Virus record (IMG/VR): IMGVR_UViG_3300045742_000129
Span: 1-32,647 of that record
Strand: one strand, 5' to 3'
DNA: 32,647 nt
From: a virus
Positions 6,991-32,647 of the stretch are shown piece after piece; positions within the stretch are counted from its first letter, which is position 1, and each line of letters begins with the position of its first letter. A program made the position numbers and the translations under genes. The notes below the pieces were generated by a model, which was not told the DNA's origin, made no database searches, and worked only from the letters and a program-made list of their open reading frames with translations.

Positions 6991-7202
6991 CAGCGGTCCC
7001 TCGATCGTTGGCCGTGTGTCGCTTCATGCAGGGGCAAAGGGAACCAGCCCCGGTAGTCTCCGGTGTCCCGGTTCACCAGCATCTTCCATGTCTGGCCGCA
7101 GTGCTCGCAGAAGCACAACTCGGGGTCGAAGGTCATGCCGTAGGAGTGTGAGCAGTCCTTGACGGGCGGGATCTGGCCGCTACCGCGGCCTCGTCTACTC
7201 AC
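6987..7202 (-). CDS. small zinc-finger-like protein
   Basis: 71 residues, GTG start just downstream of the SSB terminator. CFCEHCGQTW (around 30-39) and upstream Cys/His residues suggest one zinc site; no function known. No SD is visible for the GTG, so an internal ATG at 7136 is an alternative. It overlaps the HNH gene start by 4 bases and is probably transcribed with it. Confidence 0.5.
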   Translation of the reverse strand: MSRRGRGSGQIPPVKDCSHSYGMTFDPELCFCEHCGQTWKMLVNRDTGDYRGWFPLPLHEATHGQRSRDRW

Positions 7203-7221
7203 AGTCCACGAAGAACCCTAG

Positions 7222-7255
7222 GGAAAGAGGAAAGGGGCGGACCGAAGTCCGCCCC
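7222..7255 (-). terminator. intrinsic terminator after ssb
   Basis: On the minus strand, a perfect 9-bp stem GGGGCGGAC / GTCCGCCCC closed by a TTCG tetraloop and followed by TTTCCTCTTT. It lies 14 bases after the ssb stop. It is the only textbook rho-independent terminator I see in the window. Confidence 0.9.
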
Positions 7256-7268
7256 CTGCTCCTCATTC

Positions 7269-7763
7269 CTAGAACGGCTCCTCGTTGGGGTCGTAGTCAG
7301 GCTCGGGCGCCTGTCCACGACGACCACCACCGCCGCCGCGACGGCTGCCGCCGTCACCGCTGCCACGACGGCCGCTACCACGAGACGAGGACTCATCGTC
7401 CCTCCGTTCATTCTTGGTGATCTGAGCGGTCGCCCACCGCAGGCTCGGACCAACGTCGTCAGCGACGACCTCGATCTTCGAGCGCTTCTCGCCAGTGTCC
7501 TTGTCGTCCCACTGGCGCCACTGCAGGCGACCATCCACGATCACTCGGTCACCCTTCTCGATGGTTTCAGCGACGTTCTCCGCGAGATCGCGCCAGGCGG
7601 TCACGTCGAAGAAGTTGGCTTCCTCCTGCCACTCGCCGTCCTGCTGCCAGCGGCGATTGACCGCCAGGCCGAAGTTGACGAGGGCCGCCCCCGAGTTCAT
7701 GAACCGAAGTTCTGGGTCCCGAGTGACGTTGCCGATGAGGGTGACGGTGTTTCCTGCTGCCAT
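7269..7763 (-). CDS. ssb: single-stranded DNA-binding protein
   Basis: 164 residues from ATG 7763 (CGGAG ahead). OB-fold residues 1-115 start MAAGNTVTLIGNVTRDPELRF, followed by the conserved FGLAVNRRW and FFDVTAWRDLAENVAETIEKGDRVIVDGRLQ. A Gly/Arg/Ser-rich linker (about 122-150) leads to an acidic tip ending NEEPF, like the SSB C-terminal tail that recruits repair proteins. Typical length. It protects ssDNA in phage replication and recombination, alongside RecA (30070) and the nuclease at 5607. The terminator just downstream and a promoter-like site upstream (7820-7840) suggest strong separate expression. Confidence 0.95.
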   Translation of the reverse strand: MAAGNTVTLIGNVTRDPELRFMNSGAALVNFGLAVNRRWQQDGEWQEEANFFDVTAWRDLAENVAETIEKGDRVIVDGRLQWRQWDDKDTGEKRSKIEVVADDVGPSLRWATAQITKNERRDDESSSRGSGRRGSGDGGSRRGGGGGRRGQAPEPDYDPNEEPF

Positions 7764-17823: not shown

Positions 17824-17844
17824 GTCACCCCCTGGTGCTAAGGT
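17824..17844 (+). promoter_or_regulatory. phage promoter P4, tRNA array 1
   Basis: GTCACCCC (one change from GTCACACC), 7 bases, TAAGGT. The leader ORF ATG is 7 bases after the hexamer, so the mRNA should be leaderless. Confidence 0.8.
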
Positions 17845-17851
17845 TGCATCC

Positions 17852-17902
17852 ATGAAGCGTTATCCCGTCTCCGAGGTCTATTCCTACTCATCGAGTAGTT
17901 GA
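17852..17902 (+). CDS. Tyr/Ser-rich leader peptide of tRNA array 1
   Basis: 16 residues: MKRYPVSEVYSYSSSS. It sits between promoter P4 and a tRNA-Tyr plus four tRNA-Ser genes. It contains TAT and TAC for tRNA-Tyr(GTA), AGT for Ser(GCT), TCG for Ser(CGA), TCC for Ser(GGA) and TCA for Ser(TGA). So there is a cognate codon for every tRNA of the array, packed in the last seven codons. A hairpin CTACTC-ATC-GAGTAG covers those codons. I infer a translated sensor or attenuation leader. The peptide itself is probably not a functional protein. No SD; initiation would be leaderless. Confidence 0.75.
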   Translation: MKRYPVSEVYSYSSSS

Positions 17903-17930: not shown

Positions 17931-18017
17931 GGGAGTGCGCCGGAGATGGTGAGCCGGGGCTGGCTGTAAACCAGTTGGCGATTGCCTGAGGGGGTTCGAG
18001 TCCCTCCACTCCCACCA
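17931..18017 (+). tRNA. tRNA-Tyr(GTA)
   Basis: Acceptor GGGAGTG/CACTCCC, anticodon loop CTGTAAA, long variable arm, A73 and encoded CCA. First gene of array 1, which holds only class II (long-arm) tRNAs. Confidence 0.95.
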
Positions 18018-18075
18018 CTTAGGTTCAGAGCGGAATTACTGCCCCCGCGGTGGTGAACCCGGTCCGAACCTAAGT
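18017..18075 (+). ncRNA. stem-closed spacer RNA (F)
   Basis: A perfect 10-bp stem, ACTTAGGTTC (18017-18026) with GAACCTAAGT (18066-18075), encloses 39 bases with a GCGG/CCGC inner helix. It fills the gap between tRNA-Tyr and tRNA-Ser(GCT) and starts on the last A of the tRNA-Tyr CCA. No cloverleaf can be drawn. Function unknown; processing signal or small structured RNA. Confidence 0.55.
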
Positions 18076-18078
18076 CAT

Positions 18079-18166
18079 GGAAGGTCAACCGGACAGGCGT
18101 GCCGGGTCGCCCTGCTAAGGCGAGCGCTCCCAAGGGGGTGGGGTTCAAGTCCTCGGCCTTCCGCCA
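18079..18166 (+). tRNA. tRNA-Ser(GCT)
   Basis: Acceptor GGAAGGT/GCCTTCC, anticodon stem TCGCC/GGCGA with loop CTGCTAA, long variable arm, G73, encoded CCA. Reads AGC/AGT. Confidence 0.95.
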
Positions 18167-18193
18167 CAGGATCTCGTTACGAGAAACTGTCAT

Positions 18194-18281
18194 GGAGAGT
18201 CAACCCGACAAGCGCACGGGCACCGCCTCGAAAGCGGTTGGCACTGAAAGGTGTGGGGTGCAAGTCCTCGGCTCTCCGCCA
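18194..18281 (+). tRNA. tRNA-Ser(CGA)
   Basis: Acceptor GGAGAGT/GCTCTCC, loop CTCGAAA, long variable arm, G73, CCA. Reads TCG. A small TCTCG-TTA-CGAGA hairpin precedes it. Confidence 0.95.
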
Positions 18282-18282
18282 A

Positions 18283-18372
18283 GGAAGGTCAACCGGGCAG
18301 GCGTACCGGCATCCGTTGGAAGCGGATTGGTTCCCGAGAGGGGATGGGGTTCAAGTCCTCGGCCTTCCGCCA
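18283..18372 (+). tRNA. tRNA-Ser(GGA)
   Basis: Acceptor GGAAGGT/GCCTTCC, loop TTGGAAG, long variable arm, G73, CCA. Reads TCC/TCT. Starts one base after the previous tRNA, so processing must cut between them. Confidence 0.95.
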
Positions 18373-18373
18373 A

Positions 18374-18459
18374 GGAGGGCGGCGCCCGTGGGGGCGAACG
18401 GGCCTTGAAAGCCCGGCCGGTCTAGGTGGCCGATGGTTCGACTCCATCGCCCTCCGCCA
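18374..18459 (+). tRNA. tRNA-Ser(TGA)
   Basis: Acceptor GGAGGGC/GCCCTCC, anticodon stem CGGGC/GCCCG with loop CTTGAAA, long variable arm, G73, CCA. Reads TCA. Its 3' 38 bases are antisense to the end of the zinc/HTH gene on the other strand. Confidence 0.95.
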
Positions 18460-18875: not shown

Positions 18876-18896
18876 GTCACACCCATAGGGTATGGT
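18876..18896 (+). promoter_or_regulatory. phage promoter P6
   Basis: GTCACACC, 7 bases, TATGGT, full match. It feeds the RNA ligase gene, whose leader carries AAAGGAGG. Confidence 0.9.
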
Positions 18897-18922
18897 TCTT
18901 GCCCACGACGAAAGGAGGCACC

Positions 18923-20020
18923 ATGATCGACCTGCACGCGCTGTTCCATCCCAACGAGATCACCGAGGCGCTCGACCTGGGCCATCTGCTGTCCCAGACG
19001 CACCCCGAGTTCGATCTGACGATCTACAACTACTCGTCGCTGTGCCAGATCAGCCGTGCCTGGACTCCCGTGACCTCGGCGTGCCGTGGCCTCATCGTGG
19101 GTCCCGACAACAAGGTGATCGCACGGCCCTTCCCCAAGTTCTTCAACCACACCGAGACGGCCGTCCCCAAGTTCGCCCTGACTACTCCGCCCGTCGTGAC
19201 GGAGAAGATGGACGGGTCGTTGGGCGTGATCTACAAGCGCCCCGACGGTCGTTACGCCGTGTCCACCCGTGGCTCGTTCGCGAGCGATCAGGCCATCTGG
19301 GCCTCTGGTTGGCTGGCATCGATGATGCCCCTGTTCACCCAGCCTGATGGCGTGACCACCTTGGTCGAGATCATCTACCCCGAGAACCGGATCGTCGTGG
19401 ACTACGGCGACCGCGCGGAGTTGGTGTTGCTCGGCGCCATTGACATCGCCACCGGAGCGGACATCCCCCTGTGGGAGATCGACTGGTGGCCAGGCGCCCG
19501 CACCGAACAGCACGTCGGTCTTGGTGGCATGGATGAGGTGCATCGCCACATCATGGAATCGAACCGAGACGGCGATGAGGCCGAGGGCATCGTCGCTGTG
19601 TGGTACAAGCCTGGCCAGCCTTCGTTCCGGCTCAAGGTCAAGAGCACTGACTACGTTCGGCTCCACCGGATCATCACGGGCATCAACACCAAGCGCGTGT
19701 GGGAGGTGCTGGCCCAGGGCGGCGACTTCTACGACGTGCTCGATCGTGTCCCTGACGAGTTCTACGGCTGGGTGAAGGGTGTCATCGCGGATCTCCGCAA
19801 CCAGTACCAGGCGATCGAGGACGCTGCCTACGAGCAGTTTGCGATCATCTGCCTCAACACCGACGACGGCGACCGCAAGGGCTTCGCCGAGAAGGCCAAG
19901 AAGTCGCCCTACCCCGGCCTGATGTTCGCGTTGCTGGACGGCAAGAACATCGAGCCGACCATCTGGGCGATGATCAAGCCGAAGGCCGAGAAGCCGTTCG
20001 CCAACGGCGAGGAGGCGTGA
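18923..20020 (+). CDS. RNA ligase, T4 Rnl1-like
   Basis: 365 residues from ATG 18923 (AAAGGAGGCACC ahead). Nucleotidyltransferase motifs: R55 in CRGLIVG, motif I EKMDGSLG with the adenylated Lys95, a GAID strand near 171, motif IV EGIVAVW (221-227) and motif V RLKVKSTDY (236-244). The C-terminal 110 residues are the helical domain that gives Rnl1-type ligases substrate preference. It seals 3'-OH to 5'-phosphate RNA ends using ATP. With the Pnkp-like gene at 20318 it makes a complete T4-type tRNA repair pair, classically used against host anticodon nucleases. It lies directly behind tRNA array 1. Confidence 0.9.
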   Translation: MIDLHALFHPNEITEALDLGHLLSQTHPEFDLTIYNYSSLCQISRAWTPVTSACRGLIVGPDNKVIARPFPKFFNHTETAVPKFALTTPPVVTEKMDGSLGVIYKRPDGRYAVSTRGSFASDQAIWASGWLASMMPLFTQPDGVTTLVEIIYPENRIVVDYGDRAELVLLGAIDIATGADIPLWEIDWWPGARTEQHVGLGGMDEVHRHIMESNRDGDEAEGIVAVWYKPGQPSFRLKVKSTDYVRLHRIITGINTKRVWEVLAQGGDFYDVLDRVPDEFYGWVKGVIADLRNQYQAIEDAAYEQFAIICLNTDDGDRKGFAEKAKKSPYPGLMFALLDGKNIEPTIWAMIKPKAEKPFANGEEA

Positions 20021-20265
20021 TGGCCCTGTGGCTCTTGCACCCGAAGAAGCCATGGGGCGAGTGGGATGTCGTCAACGGATTCGTTGTCCGTGCTGGCTCC
20101 GAGGCGCAGGCCCGAGGAATCGCTCAGGCTCGCGCCGGAGATGAGAAGTGGTGGGGCCACTCTGGCGTTAAGGAGGCGTGGCTCTGCCCAGACACCACCA
20201 CCTGCGAGCGCCTCTCGGCGAATGGCGACCCTGGCGTCATCTTGCGGGACTTCCAGGGGGGTTGA
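20020..20265 (+). CDS. hypothetical protein
   Basis: 81 residues; ATG overlaps the ligase stop by one base.  It is rich in Trp (MALWLLHPKKPWGEWDVVNGFVV) with a RAGSEAQARGIAQARAGDE helix, and predicted alpha/beta. I have seen similar small phage proteins without function. No motif for catalysis. Co-transcribed with the ligase. Confidence 0.6.
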   Translation: MALWLLHPKKPWGEWDVVNGFVVRAGSEAQARGIAQARAGDEKWWGHSGVKEAWLCPDTTTCERLSANGDPGVILRDFQGG

Positions 20266-20268
20266 CAC

Positions 20269-20289
20269 GTCACACCGTTGTGCTACTAT
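20269..20289 (+). promoter_or_regulatory. phage promoter P7
   Basis: GTCACACC, 7 bases, TACTAT, with TTGACA just upstream (20262). Feeds the kinase-phosphatase gene, whose leader has GAGAGGAGG. Confidence 0.85.
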
Positions 20290-20317
20290 CACCGCACACG
20301 ACAGAGAGGAGGCCACC

Positions 20318-21175
20318 ATGGCCAAGTTGATTGCAACCCGAGGGCTGCCCGCATCGGGCAAGTCCACCTGGGCGTTGGCAAAGATTGCCAAGCGACCCGG
20401 CCAGACGATCCGCGTGAACCGCGATGACCTGCGCGCCTCAGTGCACGGCGGGGGCAAGTGGAGCAAGGCCAAGGAGCGCATCATCACGGTGATGCGTGAC
20501 GCCATGATCCACGAGGGCCTCGCGAGTGGCCTCACGGTCATCTCCGACGACACCAACTTGTCGCCGAAGGTGGTAGAGCACCTCCGCACGCTGGCCAAGG
20601 CCAACGGCGCCGAGTTCGAGATCGAGGACTTCACCGACGTGACGCCGGAGGAGTGCATCAAGCGCGACCTCGCTCGGGATCGAACCGTCGGCTCCGACGT
20701 GATCATGCGGATGTTCAACGACCACCTCAAGCCGGACACCACGGTGACGGTGGACGAGCGCCTTCCCAAGTGCATCATCGTGGACGTGGACGGCACGCTG
20801 GCCCTTCACGTCAGCCGCGGCCCCTTCGAGTACGAGAAGTGCTTGGAGGATGCTCCCAACCCTCGCGTGGTCGAGATCATCAAGATGCTCAAGGGCACCT
20901 ACGAGATCGTCGTCTGCTCGGGCCGCGAGGGCACCGAGCAGTGTCACGGCGACACGGTGGAGTGGCTGCACCGCCACGGCATTACCTACTCGGCCTTCTT
21001 CATCCGCCCCGAGGGCGACACGAGGAAGGACTCGATCATCAAGCGCGAGATCCTTGAGCGGGACATCCTCCCGCGCTGGAACCCCGTGCTGGTGGTTGAC
21101 GACCGTGATCAGGTCGTGAGGATGTGGCGTGACGCTGGCCTGCCGTGCTGGCAGGTTGCCGACGGCGCTTTCTGA
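20318..21175 (+). CDS. polynucleotide 5'-kinase / 3'-phosphatase (T4 Pnkp-like)
   Basis: 285 residues from ATG 20318. Kinase half: P-loop GLPASGKST (9-17), RDDLR (35-39, D36) and a lid with KRDLARDRTVG. Phosphatase half: DVDGTLA (156-162, HAD nucleophile), SGREGTEQ (201-208), a KDSIIKREI basic helix and VVDDRDQVVRMW (259-270). The domain order matches T4 polynucleotide kinase. It removes 2',3'-cyclic or 3'-phosphate and adds a 5'-phosphate at cut tRNA ends so the neighbouring ligase can seal them. Own promoter P7. A secure call. Confidence 0.93.
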   Translation: MAKLIATRGLPASGKSTWALAKIAKRPGQTIRVNRDDLRASVHGGGKWSKAKERIITVMRDAMIHEGLASGLTVISDDTNLSPKVVEHLRTLAKANGAEFEIEDFTDVTPEECIKRDLARDRTVGSDVIMRMFNDHLKPDTTVTVDERLPKCIIVDVDGTLALHVSRGPFEYEKCLEDAPNPRVVEIIKMLKGTYEIVVCSGREGTEQCHGDTVEWLHRHGITYSAFFIRPEGDTRKDSIIKREILERDILPRWNPVLVVDDRDQVVRMWRDAGLPCWQVADGAF

Positions 21176-22616: not shown

Positions 22617-22637
22617 GTCACACCCTGGTGCTATGGT
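22617..22637 (+). promoter_or_regulatory. phage promoter P8, tRNA array 2
   Basis: GTCACACC, 7 bases, TATGGT. The leader ORF ATG is 7 bases after the hexamer. Confidence 0.92.
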
Positions 22638-22644
22638 GGTACTC

Positions 22645-22734
22645 ATGTTCAGGCCCACCGACTTCCGCGAACGAGATCAGCGCTCCCGCCGCTGGCGTCG
22701 CGAATCGCGGCCTGCTGAGCGACCTGAGCGCTAA
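22645..22734 (+). CDS. Arg/Glu-rich leader peptide of tRNA array 2
   Basis: 29 residues, leaderless from P8. Composition: 11 Arg, 4 Glu, 3 Pro, 2 Asp, 1 Trp, 2 Phe, 2 Ser and one each of Thr, Gln, Ala and Met. The array behind it encodes Glu, Asp, Glu, Trp, Arg, Arg, Pro, Arg, Arg. Cognate codons present: GAG, GAC/GAT, GAA, TGG, CGT/CGC/CGA, CGG, CCC/CCT and AGG. Only AGA, for Arg(TCT), is absent. Even the single rare AGG is matched by tRNA-Arg(CCT). I infer a sensor leader rather than a functional protein, although an Arg-rich RNA-binding peptide is conceivable. Confidence 0.75.
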   Translation: MFRPTDFRERDQRSRRWRRESRPAERPER

Positions 22735-22766: not shown

Positions 22767-22840
22767 CCCCCCGGAGACATAGGGTGCGTCGTCAGCCTCT
22801 CAAGTTGAAGAATCGGGTTCGAGTCCCGGCGGGGGGACCA
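22767..22840 (+). tRNA. tRNA-Glu(CTC)
   Basis: Acceptor CCCCCCG/CGGGGGG, anticodon stem TCAGC/GTTGA with loop CTCTCAA, T loop TTCGAGT, A73, CCA. Reads GAG. Confidence 0.88.
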
Positions 22841-22850
22841 CCAAGATCTA

Positions 22851-22925
22851 GGTCCATTGGTGAACCGGCTATCACATCGTCCTGTCGAGGCGAAGTAAGG
22901 GGTTCGACACCCCTATGGACCGCCA
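22851..22925 (+). tRNA. tRNA-Asp(GTC)
   Basis: Acceptor GGTCCAT/ATGGACC, anticodon loop CTGTCGA, T loop TTCGACA, G73, CCA. Confidence 0.93.
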
Positions 22926-22935
22926 TCCGAAACAA

Positions 22936-23007
22936 GCCCCCATGGTCGATGGGTTAAGACGCTGGCCTTTCAAGCCGGAGGACAGGGTTCGAGTCCCTGT
23001 GGGGGTG
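22936..23007 (+). tRNA. tRNA-Glu(TTC)
   Basis: Acceptor GCCCCCA/TGGGGGT with a G1-T72 wobble at the end, loop CTTTCAA, G73. CCA is not encoded (CTT follows), so it relies on CCA-adding enzyme. Reads GAA. Confidence 0.9.
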
Positions 23008-23008
23008 C

Positions 23009-23021
23009 TTGACAACTGAAT
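23009..23021 (+). promoter_or_regulatory. boxA-like element 1
   Basis: TTGACAACTGAAT, identical over 13 bases to the element at 27807 and close to the actinobacterial rRNA leader boxA (TTTGAGAACTCAATAG type). It lies between tRNA-Glu(TTC) and tRNA-Trp. Confidence 0.6.
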
Positions 23022-23024
23022 CGA

Positions 23025-23094
23025 AGGGCAGCCACGGGGTGGACGGGAGTCTCCAAAACTCCTAGGCAGGGTTCGAGTCCCTGTTGCCCTGCCA
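23025..23094 (+). tRNA. tRNA-Trp(CCA), short D arm
   Basis: Acceptor AGGGCAG/TTGCCCT, anticodon stem GGAGT/ACTCC with loop CTCCAAA, T loop TTCGAGT, G73, CCA. Only 14 bases separate the acceptor from the anticodon stem (about 19 is usual); the D arm is reduced to CCAC-GGG-GTGG. Confidence 0.88.
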
Positions 23095-23095
23095 A

Positions 23096-23171
23096 GCGCT
23101 CGTAGTGAAATGGACAATCACGCGGTCCTACGAAGGCCGAGTTCTGGGTTCGACCCCCAGCGAGCGCGCCA
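23096..23171 (+). tRNA. tRNA-Arg(ACG)
   Basis: Acceptor GCGCTCG/CGAGCGC, loop CTACGAA, G73, CCA. With A34 deaminated by host TadA it reads CGT, CGC and CGA. Confidence 0.93.
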
Positions 23172-23180
23172 ACAACATAT

Positions 23181-23252
23181 CCCCCGCTGGTGAAGTGGAG
23201 ATCACGGCGTCGTCCGAAGGCGCAGTCCCAGGTTCGATTCCTGGGCGGGGGG
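23181..23252 (+). tRNA. tRNA-Arg(CCG)
   Basis: Acceptor CCCCCGC/GCGGGGG, anticodon stem GCGTC/GGCGC with loop GTCCGAA, G73. CCA not encoded. Reads CGG. Confidence 0.88.
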
Positions 23253-23272
23253 CGCAAACACAAGAAACACAA

Positions 23273-23349
23273 CGGGATGTGGCTCAGTTTGGTAGAGCGC
23301 CGGTCTGGGGGACCGGAGATCGCGGGTTCAAATCCCGCCATCCCGACCA
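23273..23349 (+). tRNA. tRNA-Pro(GGG)
   Basis: Acceptor CGGGATG/CATCCCG, anticodon stem CCGGT/ACCGG with loop CTGGGGG, T loop TTCAAAT, A73, CCA. Reads CCC/CCT. Confidence 0.95.
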
Positions 23350-25919: not shown

Positions 25920-25940
25920 GTCACACCAGCACTGTATGGT
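25920..25940 (+). promoter_or_regulatory. phage promoter P10 (leaderless)
   Basis: GTCACACC, 7 bases, TATGGT; ATG 25947 is 6 bases downstream. Drives the RlaP-like and Thg1 genes. Confidence 0.92.
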
Positions 25941-25946
25941 GTGGCC

Positions 25947-26639
25947 ATGAACGTCATCCTCCAAGGGGTCGTCGGCTCCACTGCCTACGGCCTCGCTACC
26001 CCTGAGTCCGACATCGACCGCCTCGGCGTGTTCCAGGCCCGCACCTCTGAGTTGCTGGGCCTGCACCCGCCGAAGGAATCGCGCGTCGGCCACAACCCCG
26101 ACATCACCCACCACGAGTTGGGCAAGTTCGTCAAGTTGTGCCTGGCCAACAACCCCACGGTGATGGAGTTGCTGTGGCTCGATGAGTACGAGGTCATGAC
26201 TCGGAGGGGTGAGGATCTCATTGCCATCCGTGACCACTTCCTCTGCCAGCGCATCCGCAAGACCTACGGCGGCTACGCCACCCAGCAGAAGGAGCGTCTC
26301 AAGCGCCGAGAGGAGGACGAGCCTGGCGCCGGGTTCTCCTCGGACCTCAAGAAGCGAACCGAGAAGCACGGCCGCCACTGCCACCGCCTCATCCTGCAGG
26401 GCGCCTGGGCGCTTCGTCATGGCGTGTTGAGGGTACGGCTCTCGGAGTCCGAGGTGGACTACTGCCGCGCCGCCGGGCGCCTCGCCGCTTCCGATGTGGA
26501 CGCCTTCTGCGCCATGACCGATGAGGCCATGGAGGAGTTCGACGCCATCGAGTCGGACCTCCCCGAGAAGCCCGACGAGGCCATCGTTGAGCGTCTCCTG
26601 CTCATCGCCCGCACCACCGACATCGGCAGGGTCGGATGA
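25947..26639 (+). CDS. RlaP-like predicted nucleotidyltransferase (COG3541)
   Basis: 230 residues from ATG 25947; an upstream GTG at 25941 would lie directly on the -10 box. N-terminal pol-beta motif QGVVGSTAYGLATPESDIDRLGVF: GS at 10-11 and the metal Asp pair D22/D24. EVMTRRGEDLIAIRDHFLC and a C-terminal helical part follow. This COG3541/YcgL family is known from RNA ligase gene neighbourhoods (RlaP) as a predicted RNA end-modifying nucleotidyltransferase. Its coupling to thg1 (ATGA overlap) and the nearby ligase/Pnkp support a role in tRNA repair. Activity not known. Confidence 0.78.
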   Translation: MNVILQGVVGSTAYGLATPESDIDRLGVFQARTSELLGLHPPKESRVGHNPDITHHELGKFVKLCLANNPTVMELLWLDEYEVMTRRGEDLIAIRDHFLCQRIRKTYGGYATQQKERLKRREEDEPGAGFSSDLKKRTEKHGRHCHRLILQGAWALRHGVLRVRLSESEVDYCRAAGRLAASDVDAFCAMTDEAMEEFDAIESDLPEKPDEAIVERLLLIARTTDIGRVG

Positions 26640-27394
26640 AGGACGAACTCGGCGACCGCTTCAAGGCGATCGAGCACGCGTACCGTCCCGTTCTGCCTCG
26701 GCGCGGGTTCGCTGTCGTGCGCGTGGATGGGCGCGCCTTCCACAGTTGGACCAGGGGCTTGGACAAGCCGTTCTCTCCGCAGTTCATCACTGCGATGGAC
26801 GCCACCGCTCGGAAGTTGTGCGAGGGGTTCTCTGGCGCCTTGTGCGCCTATGTGCAGTCCGATGAGATCAGTCTCGTGCTCACCGACCTGATCGGCGAGA
26901 ACACCGAGCCTGAGTTCGGCTGGCGTCTCCCCAAGTTGATCTCGTTGGCCGCGTCCGAAGCGACCGCCGAGTTCAACCGGCACTGGTTCGATCGCTCTGT
27001 CGCTACCTTCGACGCTCGGGCCTTCCCCCTGGCGACCGTGGAGGACGTGGCCGACTACCTCCGGTGGCGGCAAGACGATGCTCGACGCAACGCTGTGTCG
27101 ATGCTGTCGCACCACTGGCTCGGCAAGAAGGCTGTGCACGGTGTTGGCACGCGCCAACGGGTTGACCTTCTGGCCGAGATGGGGGTCCTCGTGGACGAAC
27201 AGGACCGCGGCTTCACTCAGGGCCGCATCGCTCACCCCGAGAAGCGCATGGAGACGGTGACCTACACCCGGAAGGACGATGGCACCGAACACTCGATTGA
27301 GGCCGAGCGCACGCACTGGATCGTGGAGCCGTCCGAGTTCATCCGCAACTGGTTCTACGATCAGCACGCGGAGAGGTTCGCCGAAACCTCTTGA
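26636..27394 (+). CDS. tRNA-His guanylyltransferase-like protein (Thg1/TLP)
   Basis: 252 residues. RVDGRAFHSWTRGLDKPF (29-46, metal D31) and YVQSDEISLVL (72-82, D76 E77) are the Thg1 catalytic motifs. ATFDARAFPLATVEDVADYLRWRQDDARRNAVSMLSHH follows and is also diagnostic. Thg1-like proteins add nucleotides 3'-to-5' on tRNA 5' ends, either G-1 of tRNA-His or repair of damaged ends. In bacteria they act mainly as repair enzymes. Here it follows the RlaP-like gene with an ATGA overlap and precedes tRNA array 3. Secure family call; the substrate tRNA is open. Confidence 0.93.
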   Translation: MKDELGDRFKAIEHAYRPVLPRRGFAVVRVDGRAFHSWTRGLDKPFSPQFITAMDATARKLCEGFSGALCAYVQSDEISLVLTDLIGENTEPEFGWRLPKLISLAASEATAEFNRHWFDRSVATFDARAFPLATVEDVADYLRWRQDDARRNAVSMLSHHWLGKKAVHGVGTRQRVDLLAEMGVLVDEQDRGFTQGRIAHPEKRMETVTYTRKDDGTEHSIEAERTHWIVEPSEFIRNWFYDQHAERFAETS

Positions 27395-27400
27395 CCCCCC

Positions 27401-27421
27401 GTCACACCGAGGTGCTATGGT
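27401..27421 (+). promoter_or_regulatory. phage promoter P11, tRNA array 3
   Basis: GTCACACC, 7 bases, TATGGT, with TTGACC just upstream. Leader ORF begins 40 bases later behind its own SD. Confidence 0.92.
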
Positions 27422-27461
27422 GATTAGAGAACGCAACGATCGTCAGAGCCGGAGGTGACCC

Positions 27462-27548
27462 ATGCGAGCGTGTACGAGCATCACAACTGAGATGACCGGC
27501 GCCGCCATCGGGACGATCCTCGTAGGCTCCGGTCGATTTACCGGCTGA
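27462..27548 (+). CDS. leader peptide of tRNA array 3
   Basis: 28 residues with a strong ribosome site, GGAGGTGA 3 bases before ATG. This is the only array leader with an SD. Composition: 6 Thr, 5 Gly, 3 Ala, 3 Ile, 2 Met, and single Cys, Val and Phe make 22 of 28; the rest are Arg, Ser, Glu and Leu. The array encodes fMet, Ala, Ala, Gly, Gly, Phe, Val, Cys, Ile, Val, Met, Thr, Thr, Thr. Codons GCG, GCC, GGG, GGC/GGT, TTT, TGT, ATC, ATG and all four Thr codons occur. The one Val codon is GTA, not a perfect partner for the two Val tRNAs seen. Inferred sensor leader. Confidence 0.78.
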   Translation: MRACTSITTEMTGAAIGTILVGSGRFTG

Positions 27549-27564: not shown

Positions 27565-27640
27565 CGCGGCTGGGTGAAACGGTTTCCACGCCTGGCTCAT
27601 AACCAGGAGACATCGGGTTCAACTCCCGTAGCCGCCACCA
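27565..27640 (+). tRNA. tRNA-fMet(CAT)
   Basis: C1 faces C72 (mismatch), as initiator tRNAs lack a 1:72 pair; acceptor pairs GCGGCT/AGCCGC below it. Anticodon stem CCTGG/CCAGG with loop CTCATAA, T loop TTCAACT, A73, CCA. The three G-C pairs of the usual initiator stem are only partly present. Confidence 0.75.
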
Positions 27641-27643
27641 ACC

Positions 27644-27692
27644 TGGGTCCCGACCACTCCGAGCCGCGACGCTCGTGGGTGGCGGGAACCCA
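27644..27692 (+). ncRNA. stem-closed spacer RNA (G)
   Basis: TGGGTCCCG (27644-27652) pairs with CGGGAACCCA (27683-27692), one bulge, followed inside by CCAC/GTGG and GAGC/GCTC helices: a long imperfect hairpin between tRNA-fMet and tRNA-Ala(TGC). Confidence 0.45.
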
Positions 27693-27700
27693 TCTTCCCT

Positions 27701-27774
27701 GGGGCAGCATGTACCAAGGCTGGCGACAGTGCTTTGCAAGCACCGTGAGGTGGGTTCGATTCCCTCCTGCTCCA
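27701..27774 (+). tRNA. tRNA-Ala(TGC)
   Basis: Acceptor GGGGCAG/CTGCTCC with the Ala identity pair G3-T70, anticodon helix GTGC/GCAC with loop TTTGCAA, A73; CCA not encoded (CTG). Reads GCA/GCG. Confidence 0.92.
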
Positions 27775-27806
27775 CTGCAGCAAGATCACTTGCGAGCAAT
27801 CGATCA

Positions 27807-27819
27807 TTGACAACTGAAT
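27807..27819 (+). promoter_or_regulatory. boxA-like element 2
   Basis: TTGACAACTGAAT, followed by AGG, resembling rRNA leader boxA of actinobacteria. A GCAAG-ATCA-CTTGC hairpin lies 14 bases upstream (27780-27793), as boxB precedes boxA in rrn leaders. It overlaps the left arm of the inverted repeat. Confidence 0.65.
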
Positions 27820-27827
27820 AGGTCTAT
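27813..27827 (+). repeat. left arm of 15-bp inverted repeat around tRNAs
   Basis: ACTGAATAGGTCTAT, the exact reverse complement of 29331-29345. It lies 2 bases before tRNA-Ala(GGC). Confidence 0.9.
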
Positions 27828-27829
27828 AT

Positions 27830-27901
27830 GGGGCACGCGCGTTGGGTTCGCACCCGACCCTGGCAGGGTTGGTCCGCTCGGATCGTCACCGAGGTGCTCC
27901 A
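27830..27901 (+). tRNA. tRNA-Ala(GGC), unusual T loop
   Basis: Acceptor GGGGCAC/GTGCTCC with G3-T70, anticodon stem CGACC/GGTTG with loop CTGGCAG, T stem CTCGG/CCGAG. The T loop is ATCGTCA rather than TTCGANT. A73, CCA not encoded. Reads GCC/GCT. Slightly less certain because of the T loop. Confidence 0.72.
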
Positions 27902-27905
27902 CTGT

Positions 27906-28036
27906 GAAGAAGGCCGACGGACAAGGCTTTGGCCCGTGAGGTCATGCCGAAGGTGGGAGGTACTTGTGACCGCTCGTACCACCAGAAGTGCGACCAAGCC
28001 GGGGTGGGTAGCGAGTGGTCGAGTCCTTCTTCGCCA
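27906..28036 (+). ncRNA. tRNA-like RNA with CCA end, no cloverleaf (A)
   Basis: A perfect 7-bp acceptor-like stem GAAGAAG (27906-27912) / CTTCTTC (28026-28032) followed by G73-like G and CCA. The interior is 113 bases with helices GGTCA/TGACC, GGTAC/GTACC and CGACC/GGTCG, but no standard D, anticodon or T arm. It fills exactly the gap between tRNA-Ala(GGC) and tRNA-Gly(TCC) with 4 and 1 spare bases, as a tRNA would. Novel RNA or a disrupted tRNA. Confidence 0.5.
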
Positions 28037-28037
28037 T

Positions 28038-28112
28038 GCAGATGAAGCCGAACAGGTGAGGTACCAGGCTTCCACCCTGGGGAAGCGGGTTCGAGTCCCG
28101 CCATCTGCTCCA
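28038..28112 (+). tRNA. tRNA-Gly(TCC)
   Basis: Acceptor GCAGATG/CATCTGC, anticodon stem CCAGG/CCTGG with loop CTTCCAC, T loop TTCGAGT, T73, CCA. Reads GGA/GGG. Confidence 0.95.
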
Positions 28113-28113
28113 A

Positions 28114-28223
28114 CGACAGGGAGAACCGGACAGCCACCCCTCTGCTCAGTGTGCGAGCACGGGAAACGAGGCCGGACTAAAGATCCTGTCGGGGGCCATC
28201 GGCAGCACACCCCCGATGGCCCC
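28114..28223 (+). ncRNA. stem-closed spacer RNA plus strong hairpin (B)
   Basis: CGACAGG (28114-28120) pairs with CCTGTCG (28185-28191), enclosing 64 bases. An 11-bp perfect hairpin, 28192-28202 with 28213-28223 (GGGGCCATCGG arm), follows directly. No T tract follows, so not a standard terminator. Lies between two Gly tRNAs. Confidence 0.5.
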
Positions 28224-28228
28224 ACCTT

Positions 28229-28303
28229 GCGGCCAAGGTCTAGATGGCGAGACACCTGCTTGCCATGCAGGAGAGCGGAGTTCAAGTCTCCGTGGCCGCT
28301 CCA
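28229..28303 (+). tRNA. tRNA-Gly(GCC)
   Basis: Acceptor GCGGCCA/TGGCCGC, anticodon stem CCTGC/GCAGG with loop TTGCCAT, T73, CCA. Reads GGC/GGT. Confidence 0.95.
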
Positions 28304-28304
28304 A

Positions 28305-28382
28305 GTGCCTCAGGTGTCCGTTGGATCGGCACATCGGTTTGAAACGCCGAAGGGCTGGGTTCGAGTCCCAGGGGGCACACCA
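28305..28382 (+). tRNA. tRNA-Phe(GAA)
   Basis: Acceptor GTGCCTC/GGGGCAC, anticodon stem TCGGT/GCCGA with loop TTGAAAC, A73, CCA. Confidence 0.92.
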
Positions 28383-28385
28383 CCT

Positions 28386-28461
28386 GCACGGGTGGCCAAG
28401 ATGGAAAGGCACCTCTTTCACACAGAGGAAATCGTGGGTTCGAGTCCCACTCCGTGCACCA
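28386..28461 (+). tRNA. tRNA-Val(CAC)
   Basis: Acceptor GCACGGG/TCCGTGC (G7-T66), anticodon stem CCTCT/AGAGG with loop TTCACAC, A73, CCA. Reads GTG. Confidence 0.94.
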
Positions 28462-28462
28462 A

Positions 28463-28539
28463 GCGCCAGTGCCCGAGCGGCCAAAGGGGGCGGCCTGCAA
28501 AGCCGTAATTCGTGGGTTCAAATCCCACCTGGCGCTCCA
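28463..28539 (+). tRNA. tRNA-Cys(GCA)
   Basis: Acceptor GCGCCAG/CTGGCGC, anticodon helix CGGC/GCCG with loop CTGCAAA, T73 (as Cys tRNAs have), CCA. Confidence 0.95.
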
Positions 28540-28558
28540 ATCGAGAACTCCACCCGCT

Positions 28559-28684
28559 GGCACTCAGGGGTGACACACCACCAGCCAAGCGCTTGGTCGG
28601 TGGTCGAGTAACAGGGACCCAGGGCTACCCGTCGGTCGGCGCCGACCGACGGAGACGCTCCTGCTAGGAACCCTACTGAGTGCC
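28559..28684 (+). ncRNA. multi-helix spacer RNA (C)
   Basis: GGCACTCAG (28559-28567) pairs with CTGAGTGCC (28676-28684). Inside are ACCACC (28577-28582) / GGTGGT (28599-28604) capped by CCAAGCGCTTGG, and a perfect 24-base palindrome at 28629-28652 (arm CCGTCGGTCGGC). The 149-base gap between tRNA-Cys and tRNA-Ile holds no ORF or tRNA; this structure fills most of it. A folded RNA of unknown function is likely. Confidence 0.55.
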
Positions 28685-28688
28685 TCAA

Positions 28689-28763
28689 CCGCAGGTAGCA
28701 CGGTCTGGTTAGTGCGGCGTCCTGATACGGCGCTGGTCGTGGGTTCAAATCCCACCCTGCGGA
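28689..28763 (+). tRNA. tRNA-Ile(GAT)
   Basis: Acceptor CCGCAGG/CCTGCGG, anticodon stem GCGTC/GGCGC with loop CTGATAC, A73; CCA not encoded (CTA). Reads ATC/ATT. Confidence 0.92.
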
Positions 28764-28767
28764 CTAG

Positions 28768-28832
28768 CCCCGCTCGCGAGGGGTTGCTGCGAACGTGAGA
28801 TGCAGCGGGGACCGGGGGTTCGACCCCGGCAC
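28768..28832 (+). ncRNA. stem-closed spacer RNA (D)
   Basis: CCCCGCT (28768-28774) pairs with AGCGGGG (28804-28810), followed by A-CC, then a 6-bp hairpin CCGGGG-GTTCGA-CCCCGG. The GTTCGA looks like a T loop, but no acceptor can be paired with it. Its GGGGTTGCTGC segment recurs in RNA E. Between tRNA-Ile and tRNA-Val(GAC). Confidence 0.4.
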
Positions 28833-28870
28833 CCTGGGTGGGGACTCCGACGGGGGTCCACTCACGACAA

Positions 28871-28947
28871 CCACGAGTGGCCAAGTCCGGTAAGGCACCT
28901 CCATGACACGGAGGAAAGCGCAGGTTCAAATCCTGCCTCGTGGACCA
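28871..28947 (+). tRNA. tRNA-Val(GAC)
   Basis: Acceptor CCACGAG/CTCGTGG, anticodon stem CCTCC/GGAGG with loop ATGACAC, A73, CCA. Reads GTC/GTT. Confidence 0.93.
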
Positions 28948-28948
28948 T

Positions 28949-29023
28949 TGCGCTGAGGCCGATTGGCGAGGCAACTCCCTCATAAGGAGTCCGTAGAGGG
29001 TTCGATTCCCTCCGGCGCGACCA
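28949..29023 (+). tRNA. tRNA-Met(CAT) (or Ile2)
   Basis: Acceptor TGCGCTG/CGGCGCG with a T1-G72 wobble, anticodon stem ACTCC/GGAGT with loop CTCATAA, A73, CCA. CAT may be elongator Met or, if lysidinylated, Ile for ATA; the leader 3 codon set (internal ATG, no ATA) favours Met. Confidence 0.85.
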
Positions 29024-29024
29024 A

Positions 29025-29099
29025 GCACCCGAGGTGTAGATGGCGACACGCAGCCATGGTAAGGCTGAGAGCAGGGTTCAAGTCCCTGCGGGTGCTCCA
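29025..29099 (+). tRNA. tRNA-Thr(GGT)
   Basis: Acceptor GCACCCG/CGGGTGC, anticodon stem CAGCC/GGCTG with loop ATGGTAA, T73, CCA. Reads ACC/ACT. Confidence 0.94.
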
Positions 29100-29104
29100 A
29101 TCCA

Positions 29105-29179
29105 GTGAGGTGCCCCTAGCCGCGAGGCGGGGGTCGAGGGGGTTGCTGCAGCGGCCCCCGAGTTACGACACCTCACCCA
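29105..29179 (+). ncRNA. tRNA-like RNA with His-type end, no cloverleaf (E)
   Basis: GTGAGGTG (29105-29112) pairs fully with CACCTCAC (29169-29176), then CCA. Read as tRNA this is G-1 paired with C73 plus a 7-bp acceptor, the hallmark of tRNA-His. The interior has a GNRA-capped hairpin (CCCC, GCC-GCGA-GGC, GGGG) and a second GC hairpin (GGGGG with CCCCC) instead of D, anticodon and T arms; no GTG anticodon exists. It ends one base before tRNA-Thr(CGT). Confidence 0.5.
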
Positions 29180-29180
29180 T

Positions 29181-29251
29181 GCACCACCCTGACGGCAGGA
29201 CTCCTCATTCGTACCGAGGAAGGCGGGGTTCGAGTCCCCGGTGGTGCTCCA
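29181..29251 (+). tRNA. tRNA-Thr(CGT), short D arm
   Basis: Acceptor GCACCAC/GTGGTGC; the D stem CCTG-ACGG-CAGG follows at once, without bases 8-9. Anticodon loop TTCGTAC with an A31-C39 mismatch, T73, CCA. Reads ACG. Confidence 0.82.
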
Positions 29252-29367: not shown

Positions 29368-30004
29368 ATGCGAGTTGAGATCCGTCCCGGTGAGGGAGGT
29401 GACGACGCCTACCGCTTCGCCAAGGAGTGTCTTTGACGCTTTCCAGGCAGCGGCACGCCGACGTGGGATCAAGTCCAGCGTCGATGACTCAACTCGCACC
29501 ATGATCATGGAGGTCGCTGACACCTCCTTCCTCGAACCCTTCGTCGGCACTCATCGGGTCCAGCGCATCCCCAAGCGGTCGAGCGCTCGGCACACCTCGA
29601 CGGCCACCGTGGCCATCCTTGACGCTTCGGCGATCGAGGTCGATCCTCTCGATGAGAGCGATCTGGCCGAGCGCTACACCCGCGGCTCAGGCAAGGGCGG
29701 CCAGCACCGCAACAAGACGGACTCGTGTGTCGTACTGACACACGTCCCCACGGGGATCGAGGCTCGTGTCGATGGTCGCAACCAATGGCAGAACCGCCAG
29801 GAGGCTCGTCGCGTCCTGGCGAAGCGAGTGGCCGCGGTCGAGGTCGAGGAGGCGTTGCATATCCGCAACGGAGAGCGCAACGGCCAGATCGACTCCGAGC
29901 GGTCGGCCAAGTCCTTCACGCACAACACCCAGCGCGACGAGGTGGTAGACCACTCCACCGGGCGCTCATGGCGCCTGCGTGACTTCGCCAAGGGCAAGTT
30001 CTGA
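29368..30004 (+). CDS. peptide chain release factor with +1 programmed frameshift
   Basis: Translated as 29368-29433 joined to 29435-30004, giving 211 residues. ATG 29368 has AGAGGAG ahead. Frame 0 gives [14 protein letters not shown] and six more residues, then stops at CTT-TGA. A +1 slip continues with [11 protein letters not shown]. The join restores a class I release factor from domain 2 onward: [11 protein letters not shown] (RF EIRAGTGGDEA), [17 protein letters not shown], the catalytic [11 protein letters not shown] (GGQ at 110-112) and [10 protein letters not shown]. Domain 1 is absent, as in PrfH-type factors. The decoding tripeptide position reads PKR (68-70) instead of PxT or SPF. 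It probably releases peptides from stalled or damaged ribosomes, and may regulate itself through the UGA. Confidence 0.88.
29422..29437 (+). other. prfB-type +1 frameshift site
   Basis: AAGGAG (29422-29427), TGT, CTT, TGA, C. The SD-like hexamer, 3-base spacing, CTT slip codon, TGA stop and following C copy the bacterial RF2 recoding site (AGGGGG TAT CTT TGA C). Confidence 0.92.
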
Positions 30005-31895: not shown

Positions 31896-31916
31896 GTCAC
31901 ACCCGAGTGGTATGGT
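31896..31916 (+). promoter_or_regulatory. phage promoter P13, tRNA array 4
   Basis: GTCACACC, 7 bases, TATGGT; leader ATG 6 bases downstream (leaderless). Confidence 0.92.
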
Positions 31917-31922
31917 GGTCAC

Positions 31923-32009
31923 ATGTTCGCACGACTTCTATTGCTGCCAGGGCCTCATCAGGCCCCCGCTGCTCATCGAAAGCGGTCCCAACGACCGCCC
32001 AATCGTTGA
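31923..32009 (+). CDS. Leu/Pro-rich leader peptide of tRNA array 4
   Basis: 28 residues, leaderless. It opens MFARLLLLPGP; the four Leu codons are all different (CTT, CTA, TTG, CTG). Further on are 5 Pro in total, 2 Gln (CAG, CAA), 2 His, 1 Lys, 1 Asn, 5 Arg and 4 Ala. The array behind it starts Leu(CAG), Leu(GAG), Leu(CAA), Pro(CGG), Pro(TGG), Gln(CTG), and each has its cognate codon. The order Leu, Pro, Gln is broadly kept. CTA, CAA, CAT, AAG and AAT predict tRNAs Leu(TAG), Gln(TTG), His, Lys and Asn beyond the window. Inferred sensor leader. Confidence 0.78.
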   Translation: MFARLLLLPGPHQAPAAHRKRSQRPPNR

Positions 32010-32074
32010 GCAGTCCGGTAGCGAGTCGCGCACATTCGCTCCGGGCCTGGTGAGGCTTCTCTAGCCCCCAGGCC
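31950..32074 (+). promoter_or_regulatory. leader 4 alternative pairing region
   Basis: Arm 1 GGGCCT (31950-31955), arm 2 AGGCCC (31960-31965), arm 3 GGGCCTGG (32043-32050), arm 4 CCAGGCC (32068-32074). Arms 1:2 plus 3:4, or 2:3 (AGGCCC with 32043-32048), are mutually exclusive, as in attenuators. Arms 1 and 2 lie in the leader ORF just after the Leu codons. The 104 bases between leader stop and first tRNA hold only this structure. Confidence 0.62.
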
Positions 32075-32113
32075 GCTGTGTCCGAACACCACACCCTGCC
32101 TGGGAAACATCCT

Positions 32114-32200
32114 CCCCGGATGGCGGAACTGGCAGACGCACTGTCCTCAGAAGGCAGGGGCCGAAAGGCCGTGTGGGTTCAACTCCCACTCCGGGGACCA
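32114..32200 (+). tRNA. tRNA-Leu(CAG)
   Basis: Acceptor CCCCGGA/TCCGGGG, anticodon stem CTGTC/GGCAG with loop CTCAGAA, long variable arm, A73, CCA. Reads CTG. Confidence 0.95.
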
Positions 32201-32201
32201 A

Positions 32202-32287
32202 GTACCCGTGGTGGAACGGTAGACACGGCAGTCTGAGAGGCTGTTGACCGAGAGGTCGTGAGGGTTCGACTCCCTCCGGGTACACCA
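32202..32287 (+). tRNA. tRNA-Leu(GAG)
   Basis: Acceptor GTACCCG/CGGGTAC, anticodon stem GCAGT/GCTGT with loop CTGAGAG, long variable arm, A73, CCA. Reads CTC/CTT. Confidence 0.94.
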
Positions 32288-32288
32288 A

Positions 32289-32370
32289 GCCCGAGTGGCG
32301 GAACTGGCAGACGCGCCGGATTCAAGTCCCGGTGCCGAAAGGCGTGTGGGTTCGACTCCCACCTCGGGCA
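32289..32370 (+). tRNA. tRNA-Leu(CAA)
   Basis: Acceptor GCCCGAG/CTCGGGC, anticodon loop TTCAAGT with an A31-C39 mismatch, long variable arm, A73; CCA not encoded (CAA). Reads TTG. Confidence 0.9.
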
Positions 32371-32396
32371 CAACAGGAGAGAGATCAACAACACAA

Positions 32397-32474
32397 CGGG
32401 TAGGGGTGACGGCTTGGTTGCACGCCGCTTTCGGGAAGCGGAGGTCGCGGGTTCAAATCCCGCCTACCCGACCA
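32397..32474 (+). tRNA. tRNA-Pro(CGG)
   Basis: Acceptor CGGGTAG/CTACCCG, anticodon stem CCGCT/AGCGG with loop TTCGGGA, A73, CCA. Reads CCG. Confidence 0.95.
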
Positions 32475-32475
32475 G

Positions 32476-32550
32476 CGAGGAGGTGCCGGATGGTAAGGCA
32501 CTCGGTTTGGGACCGAGACTAAGCAGGTTCGATTCCTGTCTCCTCGACCA
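32476..32550 (+). tRNA. tRNA-Pro(TGG)
   Basis: Acceptor CGAGGAG/CTCCTCG, anticodon stem CTCGG/CCGAG with loop TTTGGGA, A73, CCA. Reads CCA. Confidence 0.95.
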
Positions 32551-32551
32551 A

Positions 32552-32563
32552 GTTCTTTGACAA
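32552..32563 (+). promoter_or_regulatory. boxA-like element 3
   Basis: GTTCTTTGACAA, close to the rRNA boxA form TGCTCTTTAACA and to the TTCTTTGA-AA form of Gram-positive bacteria. It sits between tRNA-Pro(TGG) and tRNA-Gln. Confidence 0.55.
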
Positions 32564-32577
32564 TCGAGATCATTCGT

Positions 32578-32647
32578 TCCGGGGTGGTGTAATTGGCAGT
32601 CACGCAACACTCTGAATGTTGAGGTCGGGGTTCGATCCCCTGCCCCG
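32578..32647 (+). tRNA. tRNA-Gln(CTG), cut by window edge
   Basis: Acceptor 5' strand TCCGGGG with CCCCG visible at the end of the window, anticodon stem CAACA/TGTTG with loop CTCTGAA, T arm CGGGG/CCCTG. The 3' end lies outside. Reads CAG. Confidence 0.88.

Follow-up and report, generated by a model that had tools for sequence, protein, structure and literature searches.

Short leader peptide genes spell out the amino acids of the tRNA arrays that they precede in a phage family and may serve as attenuators

tRNA arrays, leader genes and promoter-like motifs in the window

The window analyzed here is the complete IMG/VR record IMGVR_UViG_3300045742_000129 (32,647 bases), whose 3' end falls within a tRNA-Gln gene. 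It carries 30 tRNA genes grouped in four arrays, and upstream of each array there is a short leader ORF behind a common promoter-like motif, GTCACACC-N7-TATGGTG. All of these features lie on the plus strand. For array 1, the motif (17824..17845, three mismatches) is followed by leader peptide gene 1 (17852..17902; MKRYPVSEVYSYSSSS, for Tyr and Ser) and by Tyr(gta), Ser(gct), Ser(gga) and Ser(tga) genes together with a Ser(cga)-like copy (array at 17931..18459; copy at approximately 18193-18281, called by no finder). For array 2, an exact copy of the motif (22617..22638) precedes leader peptide gene 2 (22645..22734; MFRPTDFRERDQRSRRWRRESRPAERPER, for Arg, Glu, Asp, Trp and Pro) and the genes for Glu(ctc), Asp(gtc), Glu(ttc), Trp(cca), Arg(acg), Arg(ccg) and Pro(ggg) (22767..23349). 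The motif is also exact at array 3 (27401..27422), where leader peptide gene 3 (27462..27548; MRACTSITTEMTGAAIGTILVGSGRFTG, for Met, Ala, Gly, Phe, Val, Cys, Ile and Thr) has the ribosome site GGAGGTGA and heads an array of Met, two Ala, two Gly, Phe, Val, Cys, Ile, Val, Met and two Thr genes (27565..29251). Leaders 1 to 3 are assigned by composition and placement tests. Finally, the exact motif at 31896..31917 is followed by leader peptide gene 4 (31923..32009; MFARLLLLPGPHQAPAAHRKRSQRPPNR, ATG at 31923 and TGA ending at 32009), which has counterparts in three related phages, and by array 4 with Leu(cag), Leu(gag), Leu(caa), Pro(cgg), Pro(tgg) and Gln(ctg), the last being cut by the record end (32114..32647).

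In total, six matches to the promoter-like motif were found in the window, compared with 0.04 expected. In leaders 1, 2 and 4, the ATG is located 6-7 nt downstream of the -10-like hexamer (TATGGT ends 6 nt before the ATG of leader 4), and because of this spacing the mRNAs of these three leaders are probably leaderless or nearly so. Outside the window, a search with the promoter pattern retrieved a single contig (L003), with no tRNA within the stretch examined.

Several genes between the arrays encode predicted RNA-repair functions, including an RNA ligase of the T4 Rnl1 type (RNA_lig_T4_1; 18923-20017), a polynucleotide kinase-phosphatase (HAD_PNKP; 20066-21172), an RlaP-like RNA-repair nucleotidyltransferase (25941-26636) and a Thg1-like protein (26636-27391). 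Judged by these predicted functions, the four genes are a tRNA-repair set. Just 3' of array 3 there is a gene whose product, a phage protein, contains an RF-1 domain (peptide release factor; 29375-30001). Weaker copies of the promoter-like motif, each with three mismatches, were observed at 18876-18897 and 25920-25941, close to the genes for the RNA ligase and RlaP, as would be expected if the repair genes and the arrays used one promoter class.

Forecast of unseen tRNA genes from leader 4

Leu, Pro, Gln, His, Asn and Lys account for 15 of the 27 residues of leader 4. When the set is restricted to Leu, Pro and Gln, leader 4 is equalled at 2 of 400 random places in the window; for the full set of six, P for this leader alone is about 4e-4 to 9e-4. 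As recorded in the preliminary description, the leader contains four consecutive and different Leu codons (CTT CTA TTG CTG), after which CCA, CCT, CAT, CAG, CCC, CAT, AAG, CAA, CCG, CCC and AAT appear among others, and the visible part of array 4 has three Leu, two Pro and one Gln gene in that order. A tRNA scan detected no His, Lys or Asn tRNA gene elsewhere in the window. On this basis it had been forecast that Leu(TAG), Gln(TTG), His(GTG), Lys(CTT) and Asn(GTT) genes should follow beyond the right edge of the record.

This forecast could be examined in three relatives of the window phage, which were found via the portal protein, the DNA pattern of leader 2 and phosphoesterase alignment. In IMGVR_UViG_3300037264_002101 (G003), array 4 consists of Leu(taa, cag, gag, caa), Pro(cgg, tgg), Gln(ctg, ttg), His(gtg), Asn(gtt) and Lys(ctt, ttt). 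In IMGVR_UViG_3300025310_000004 (G004, 171 kb), it consists of Leu(tag, cag, gag, caa), Pro(cgg, tgg), Gln(ctg), His(gtg), Gln(ttg), two Asn(gtt), two Lys(ctt) and Lys(ttt). The corresponding array of IMGVR_UViG_3300015360_000089 (G005; phosphoesterase 42% identical) comprises Leu(gag, caa, tag, taa), Pro(cgg, tgg), two Gln(ctg), His(gtg), Gln(ttg), Asn(gtt) and two Lys(ctt). Thus, the predicted Gln(TTG), His(GTG), Lys(CTT) and Asn(GTT) genes are present in all three relatives, and the predicted Leu(TAG) gene is found in G004 (as the first gene) and G005 (as the third) and is missing from G003. None of the three arrays contains an amino acid other than Leu, Pro, Gln, His, Asn and Lys. The leaders of these arrays, MSRLLLLPQPSKAKPGRHQPRLTGRPLNPQAQQG in G003, MYRLLPLLRPLKAKPGHQRPRHAARPLNPQQQG in G004 and METRPQLLARLLRQPLLAQRKHQPRPKSKPRNR in G005, draw 64%, 66% and 62% of their residues from the same six amino acids, all of which occur in each leader.

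The forecast of unseen tRNAs from leader 4 is therefore supported by the gene content of three related phages. It should be noted that the other arrays of the window leave only His, Lys and Asn uncovered, so that elimination would have yielded the same three if the phage has tRNAs for all 20 amino acids. Taken by itself, the forecast loses weight through this argument, but the relatives' leaders do not, and these divergent leaders are the stronger case. The distance between leader 4 and the first tRNA gene is 104 nt in the window versus 31-36 nt in the relatives, and this long gap may be the mark of a lost first Leu tRNA gene.

Other searches for relatives were less productive. The phosphoesterase, used as a single query against viral contigs, gave no matches. 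A degenerate leader 2 pattern retrieved three true relatives (one of them new) and four matches without tRNAs that were dismissed as chance. The leader 1 hairpin pattern had eight matches in genome contigs, none of them with a tRNA array.

Composition and codon usage of the leaders

Across four arrays and five phages, all amino acids of the own array are present in each of the 18 leaders. The share of cognate residues ranges from 53% to 81%, and in each case it is highest for the own array. In placement tests of 13 leader-array pairs, including mycobacteriophage and Caulobacter leaders, at most 5 of 400 random places equalled each leader. The background gene list for the composition tests contained one gene out of frame (a few stop letters in 5748), with negligible effect. 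Moreover, leader 2 of G005 (MEFMSLAERTEREERRDRRAPVAFWRPER) can barely be aligned with leader 2 of the window and has retained Glu, Asp, Arg, Trp and Pro. Leader composition, as judged from these comparisons, outlasts leader sequence. In the window family, leader content firmly tracks array content, and a leader can be used as an annotation rule that forecasts which tRNAs an array contains.

The match extends to codons. All ten Pro codons of leader 2 across the family are CCC or CCT, and the only Pro tRNA in array 2 is Pro(GGG), whereas 14 of the 22 Pro codons of leader 4 are CCA or CCG, with Pro(CGG) and Pro(TGG) in array 4 (p = 0.0013 for the contrast between leaders 2 and 4, the counts coming from homologous leaders). 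Between the window and G003, identical residues of leaders 1-3 use the same codon in 50 of 57 cases, compared with 71 of 133 in the phosphoesterase and 161 of 250 in RecA, both encoded by neighboring genes. This excess of codon conservation over the neighboring genes is absent from leader 4 in the same pair of phages.

Leaders upstream of tRNA arrays in isolated phages

We also carried out a blind scan for leaders upstream of tRNA arrays in isolated phages. Leaders were detected in Mycobacterium phage Lukilu (MFAFRLSLSSSLLS) and phage Phabba (MFALLSLSSSLRLS), in both cases before an array of one Ser and three Leu genes. In Caulobacter phage CcrRogue, the scan identified leader B (MFALSHLSLSTKAASPATLSLALLATAAKPSTKPTTSASHSTETH) before an array for Pro, Thr, Lys, Leu, His and Ala (plus a Ser-like gene); with Ser included, its cognate residues number 42 of 44 (P 8e-15). 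A tblastn search with leader B gave no match, not even to the phages that carry it and that were among the sequences searched, probably owing to low-complexity masking. A further CcrRogue leader, leader C (MSKSYRQFVQIQVVRNFRAGRSRMDDGGTFI), precedes a Phe, Val, Ile, Gln and Arg array whose first gene is Tyr-like. Leader C was found in 44 phages of Caulobacter and Brevundimonas, and in two Brevundimonas phages with this leader the first gene is annotated as tRNA-Tyr.

The phiCbK genome paper (PMC3556154) reports that Thr and Tyr tRNAs are missing from all the phages it describes and that tRNAs for Ala, Asn, His and Ser are confined to phages other than Rogue. ARAGORN identified Thr, His and Ala tRNA genes in CcrRogue, in agreement with leader B. 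In this phage, the leader thus pointed to tRNAs (Thr, His, Ala and Ser) that the paper counts as absent from it. tRNA-Ser-like genes of odd structure, in the window (18193-18281) and in L062 (approximately 7059-7320), are missed or scored low by ARAGORN and Rfam; the Ser codons in the leaders suggest that these genes are real.

For Myrna, DSS3_MAL1, Mildred21 and G006, the blind scan yielded no convincing leader, Mildred21 having one moderate match (P 1e-4). A match in Trina was rejected because it overlaps the rIIB gene. In addition, leader A of the Caulobacter phages (MTHLLTRYEREATGLDTTTA; L062:5047-5109, L065:2401-2463 and L066:2683-2745), located before Glu/Asp tRNAs, does not obey the composition rule, and the CcrKarma annotation places a terminator over it. 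The Rfam 'skipping-rope' RNA was observed just 3' of the first tRNA group in Caulobacter phages (L062:4703-4799 and L065:2057-2153).

Candidate switch structures

In the Caulobacter and Brevundimonas phages, intrinsic terminators with U-tracts are located between leaders and tRNAs, directly 5' of the tRNAs, and the CcrKarma record has a predicted terminator annotated before each of its three leader-headed arrays. Folding with a masked ribosome footprint in three phages predicted that, for leader B, an antiterminator holds the 5' arm of the terminator with P of about 0.74 when the ribosome is at nearly every codon from 2 to 35, and that this probability has mostly dropped to near 0 once the ribosome is at about codon 36 or beyond. 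In leader C, codons 17-21 supply the antiterminator strand; in the same kind of analysis, the antiterminator probability is near 1 with the ribosome at codons 2-13 and low at about codons 15-26. This strand also covaries with the terminator arm from G:C to A:U (CGGACGGGCC with GGCCCGTC). In BL9 and CcrSC the 3' arm is altered too; in Bajun it is unaltered and a G-U pair is left. Masked folding and covariation therefore predict that a stall on a cognate codon in leader B or C results in read-through. It is well supported by these predictions that terminator and antiterminator are mutually exclusive and dependent on ribosome position in the Caulobacter phages, as in a textbook attenuator. In equilibrium folding, the antiterminator of leader C is able to re-form with the ribosome at the stop codon, and termination after full translation of this leader thus requires kinetic arguments.

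In the window, a strand of leader 4 directly 3' of the Leu codons (GGGCCTCATCAGGCCC, 31950..31965, plus strand) could either fold on itself (31950-31955 with 31960-31965) or form a long-range helix of 16 bp with 32043-32058, part of which can pair locally instead (32044-32050 with 32068-32074). The arms at 31950, 31960, 32043 and 32068, which had been described as a four-arm competing structure, are indeed present and may have a regulatory action. Leader:pre-tRNA helices that are analogous and differ in sequence occur at leader 4 of G003, G004 and G005. In the window itself, the 16-bp helix is not significant against shuffles. Two further plus-strand hairpins were noted at this leader, one with arms at 31968-31975 and 32007-32014 (31968..32014), whose 3' arm overlaps the leader stop codon, and one terminator-like hairpin, GGCCTGG...CCAGGCC, without a U-tract (32044..32074).

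The search for intrinsic terminators (stem-loop with a T-run) between leader and tRNA found none in the window. In arrays 1, 2 and 4, a stable hairpin between the stop codon and the tRNA beats shuffles in most leaders; leader:gap pairing overall does not significantly exceed that of shuffles (Fisher 0.06 and 0.18). The distance from leader stop to first tRNA is 13-38 nt, except at leader 4 of the window, and the segment after the stop codon is often also complementary to the first tRNA at its 5' end. When a ribosome footprint was masked in equilibrium folding, the expected direction was seen in arrays 1 and 4 of some relatives and no switch in arrays 2 and 3, and no uniform thermodynamic switch across the window family emerged. 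Because there is neither a U-tract nor a uniform equilibrium switch, the switch step of the window phage is proposed by analogy: its ON/OFF logic would resemble that of the Caulobacter phages, acting through termination without a U-tract or through masking of the 5' end of the first tRNA.

Proposed mechanism and alternative explanations

We propose, with a probability of roughly 70%, that each leader provides the sensing part of a multivalent ribosome-mediated attenuator, which governs the downstream tRNA array and responds to tRNA shortage. A ribosome would translate the short leader, which spells codons read by the tRNAs of the array. If any such charged tRNA became scarce, as when host tRNAs are cleaved, degraded or uncharged during infection, the ribosome would stall, the RNA ahead of it would adopt the ON structure, and the array would be expressed. 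With plentiful tRNAs, the ribosome would reach the end of the leader, the OFF structure would form, and the array would be shut off. The outcome would be demand sensing with negative feedback. That such an attenuator operates in vivo is what we infer from these data. More generally, it seems somewhat more likely than not that self-indexed tRNA arrays exist in phages of unrelated hosts (Actinobacteria and Alphaproteobacteria). The leader of such an array would work as an OR gate that senses when tRNAs are depleted, as host anticodon nucleases might do, and would switch on just the array that replaces the lost tRNAs.

The same sensor might have an output other than termination in the actinophages, acting on how the first tRNA is matured or on how stable the precursor is. 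Here a post-stop segment (F) would have two alternative partners, a segment at the stop codon (E) and the first tRNA's 5' strand, and a ribosome at the stop codon would free F to mask that strand. We regard this as unlikely, yet it has several points in its favor: the short distance between stop codon and tRNA (13-38 nt, but 104 nt in window leader 4), the missing U-tract, the complementarity of F to the tRNA 5' end in leader 2 (GCCCC/GGGGC/GCCCC, p = 0.003) and leader 4 (p = 0.010) of G005, and a three-way competition that is also seen in Lukilu and Phabba. Against it, pairing with the tRNA 5' end is no better than in shuffles for many leaders, notably leader 3, and in array 2 this pairing appears whatever the ribosome position. 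A control of opposite sign, in which full translation of the leader is required so that an array is made only when its tRNAs already work, is quite improbable. The strong hairpins directly 3' of the stop codon could be opened by a terminating ribosome, and a ribosome at the stop might likewise shield the RNA from Rho; however, the Caulobacter leaders B and C predict read-through upon stalling, and such a sign makes poor sense for a sensor matched to its own products.

The two remaining alternatives concern the leaders themselves. That they are small functional peptides with an incidental composition is very improbable: Caulobacter phage annotations list leader B as a hypothetical protein, but composition is kept while the peptide sequence diverges, codon conservation exceeds peptide conservation, and the regulatory RNA overlaps the coding region. 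Single window leaders can be as weak as P ~1e-3 (leader 4), which would leave room for a match due to chance or to codon or GC bias, with the leaders being spurious ORFs. The 13 placement tests, the complete coverage in 18 of 18 leaders, the 42 of 44 cognate residues in CcrRogue and, above all, the relatives, in which the forecast tRNAs were found, refute this explanation, and we give it practically no credence.

Relation to known systems and to tRNA damage

Multivalent ribosome-mediated attenuators are well known from amino acid operons (ilvGMEDA and thrABC; trp, his, leu and phe). The phage leaders resemble them in that a short peptide is rich in codons for the regulated product, and the Caulobacter phages, according to our sequence tests, also share the mutually exclusive terminator and antiterminator whose choice is decided by ribosome position. 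They differ from them in that the targets are tRNA arrays instead of biosynthesis enzymes, that a leader lists up to eight amino acids, and that in the actinophages the output hairpin has no U-tract and lies directly against the first tRNA. T-box riboswitches also sense tRNA charging and control translation-related genes, and they differ in binding tRNA directly without translation. A T-box covariance model had no match in the window, where Rfam at the gathering threshold reported tRNAs only.

Phage tRNA arrays have been discussed as a counter-defence against tRNA-cleaving systems (PMC10264068, PMC11555353, PMC12409363). These arrays are of the same gene kind as those of the window, where tRNA-repair genes adjoin the arrays. 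The repair genes fit a phage that meets tRNA damage, and a sensor of tRNA shortage would suit such a phage. If arrays are indeed switched on by shortage of their own tRNAs, the regulation itself tells the purpose of an array. A word search of PMC10264068, PMC10865867 (tRNA-dependent lysogeny), PMC13015707 (a 2026 survey) and PMC3556154 (phiCbK genome) gave no mention of a leader peptide or attenuator for phage tRNA genes. No precedent for leader-controlled phage tRNA genes was found in the papers searched, which were open-access full texts, and absence from these is not proof of novelty. The attenuation reading can be tested in ordinary laboratory phages, such as Caulobacter phages phiCbK and CcrRogue and mycobacteriophage Lukilu.

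A tRNA with the anticodon CTA, classified as Pyl by ARAGORN, was also observed in G005 (L042:13351-13426, minus strand) and in phage Phabba (L058:8645-8715), and it is possibly an amber-reading tRNA.
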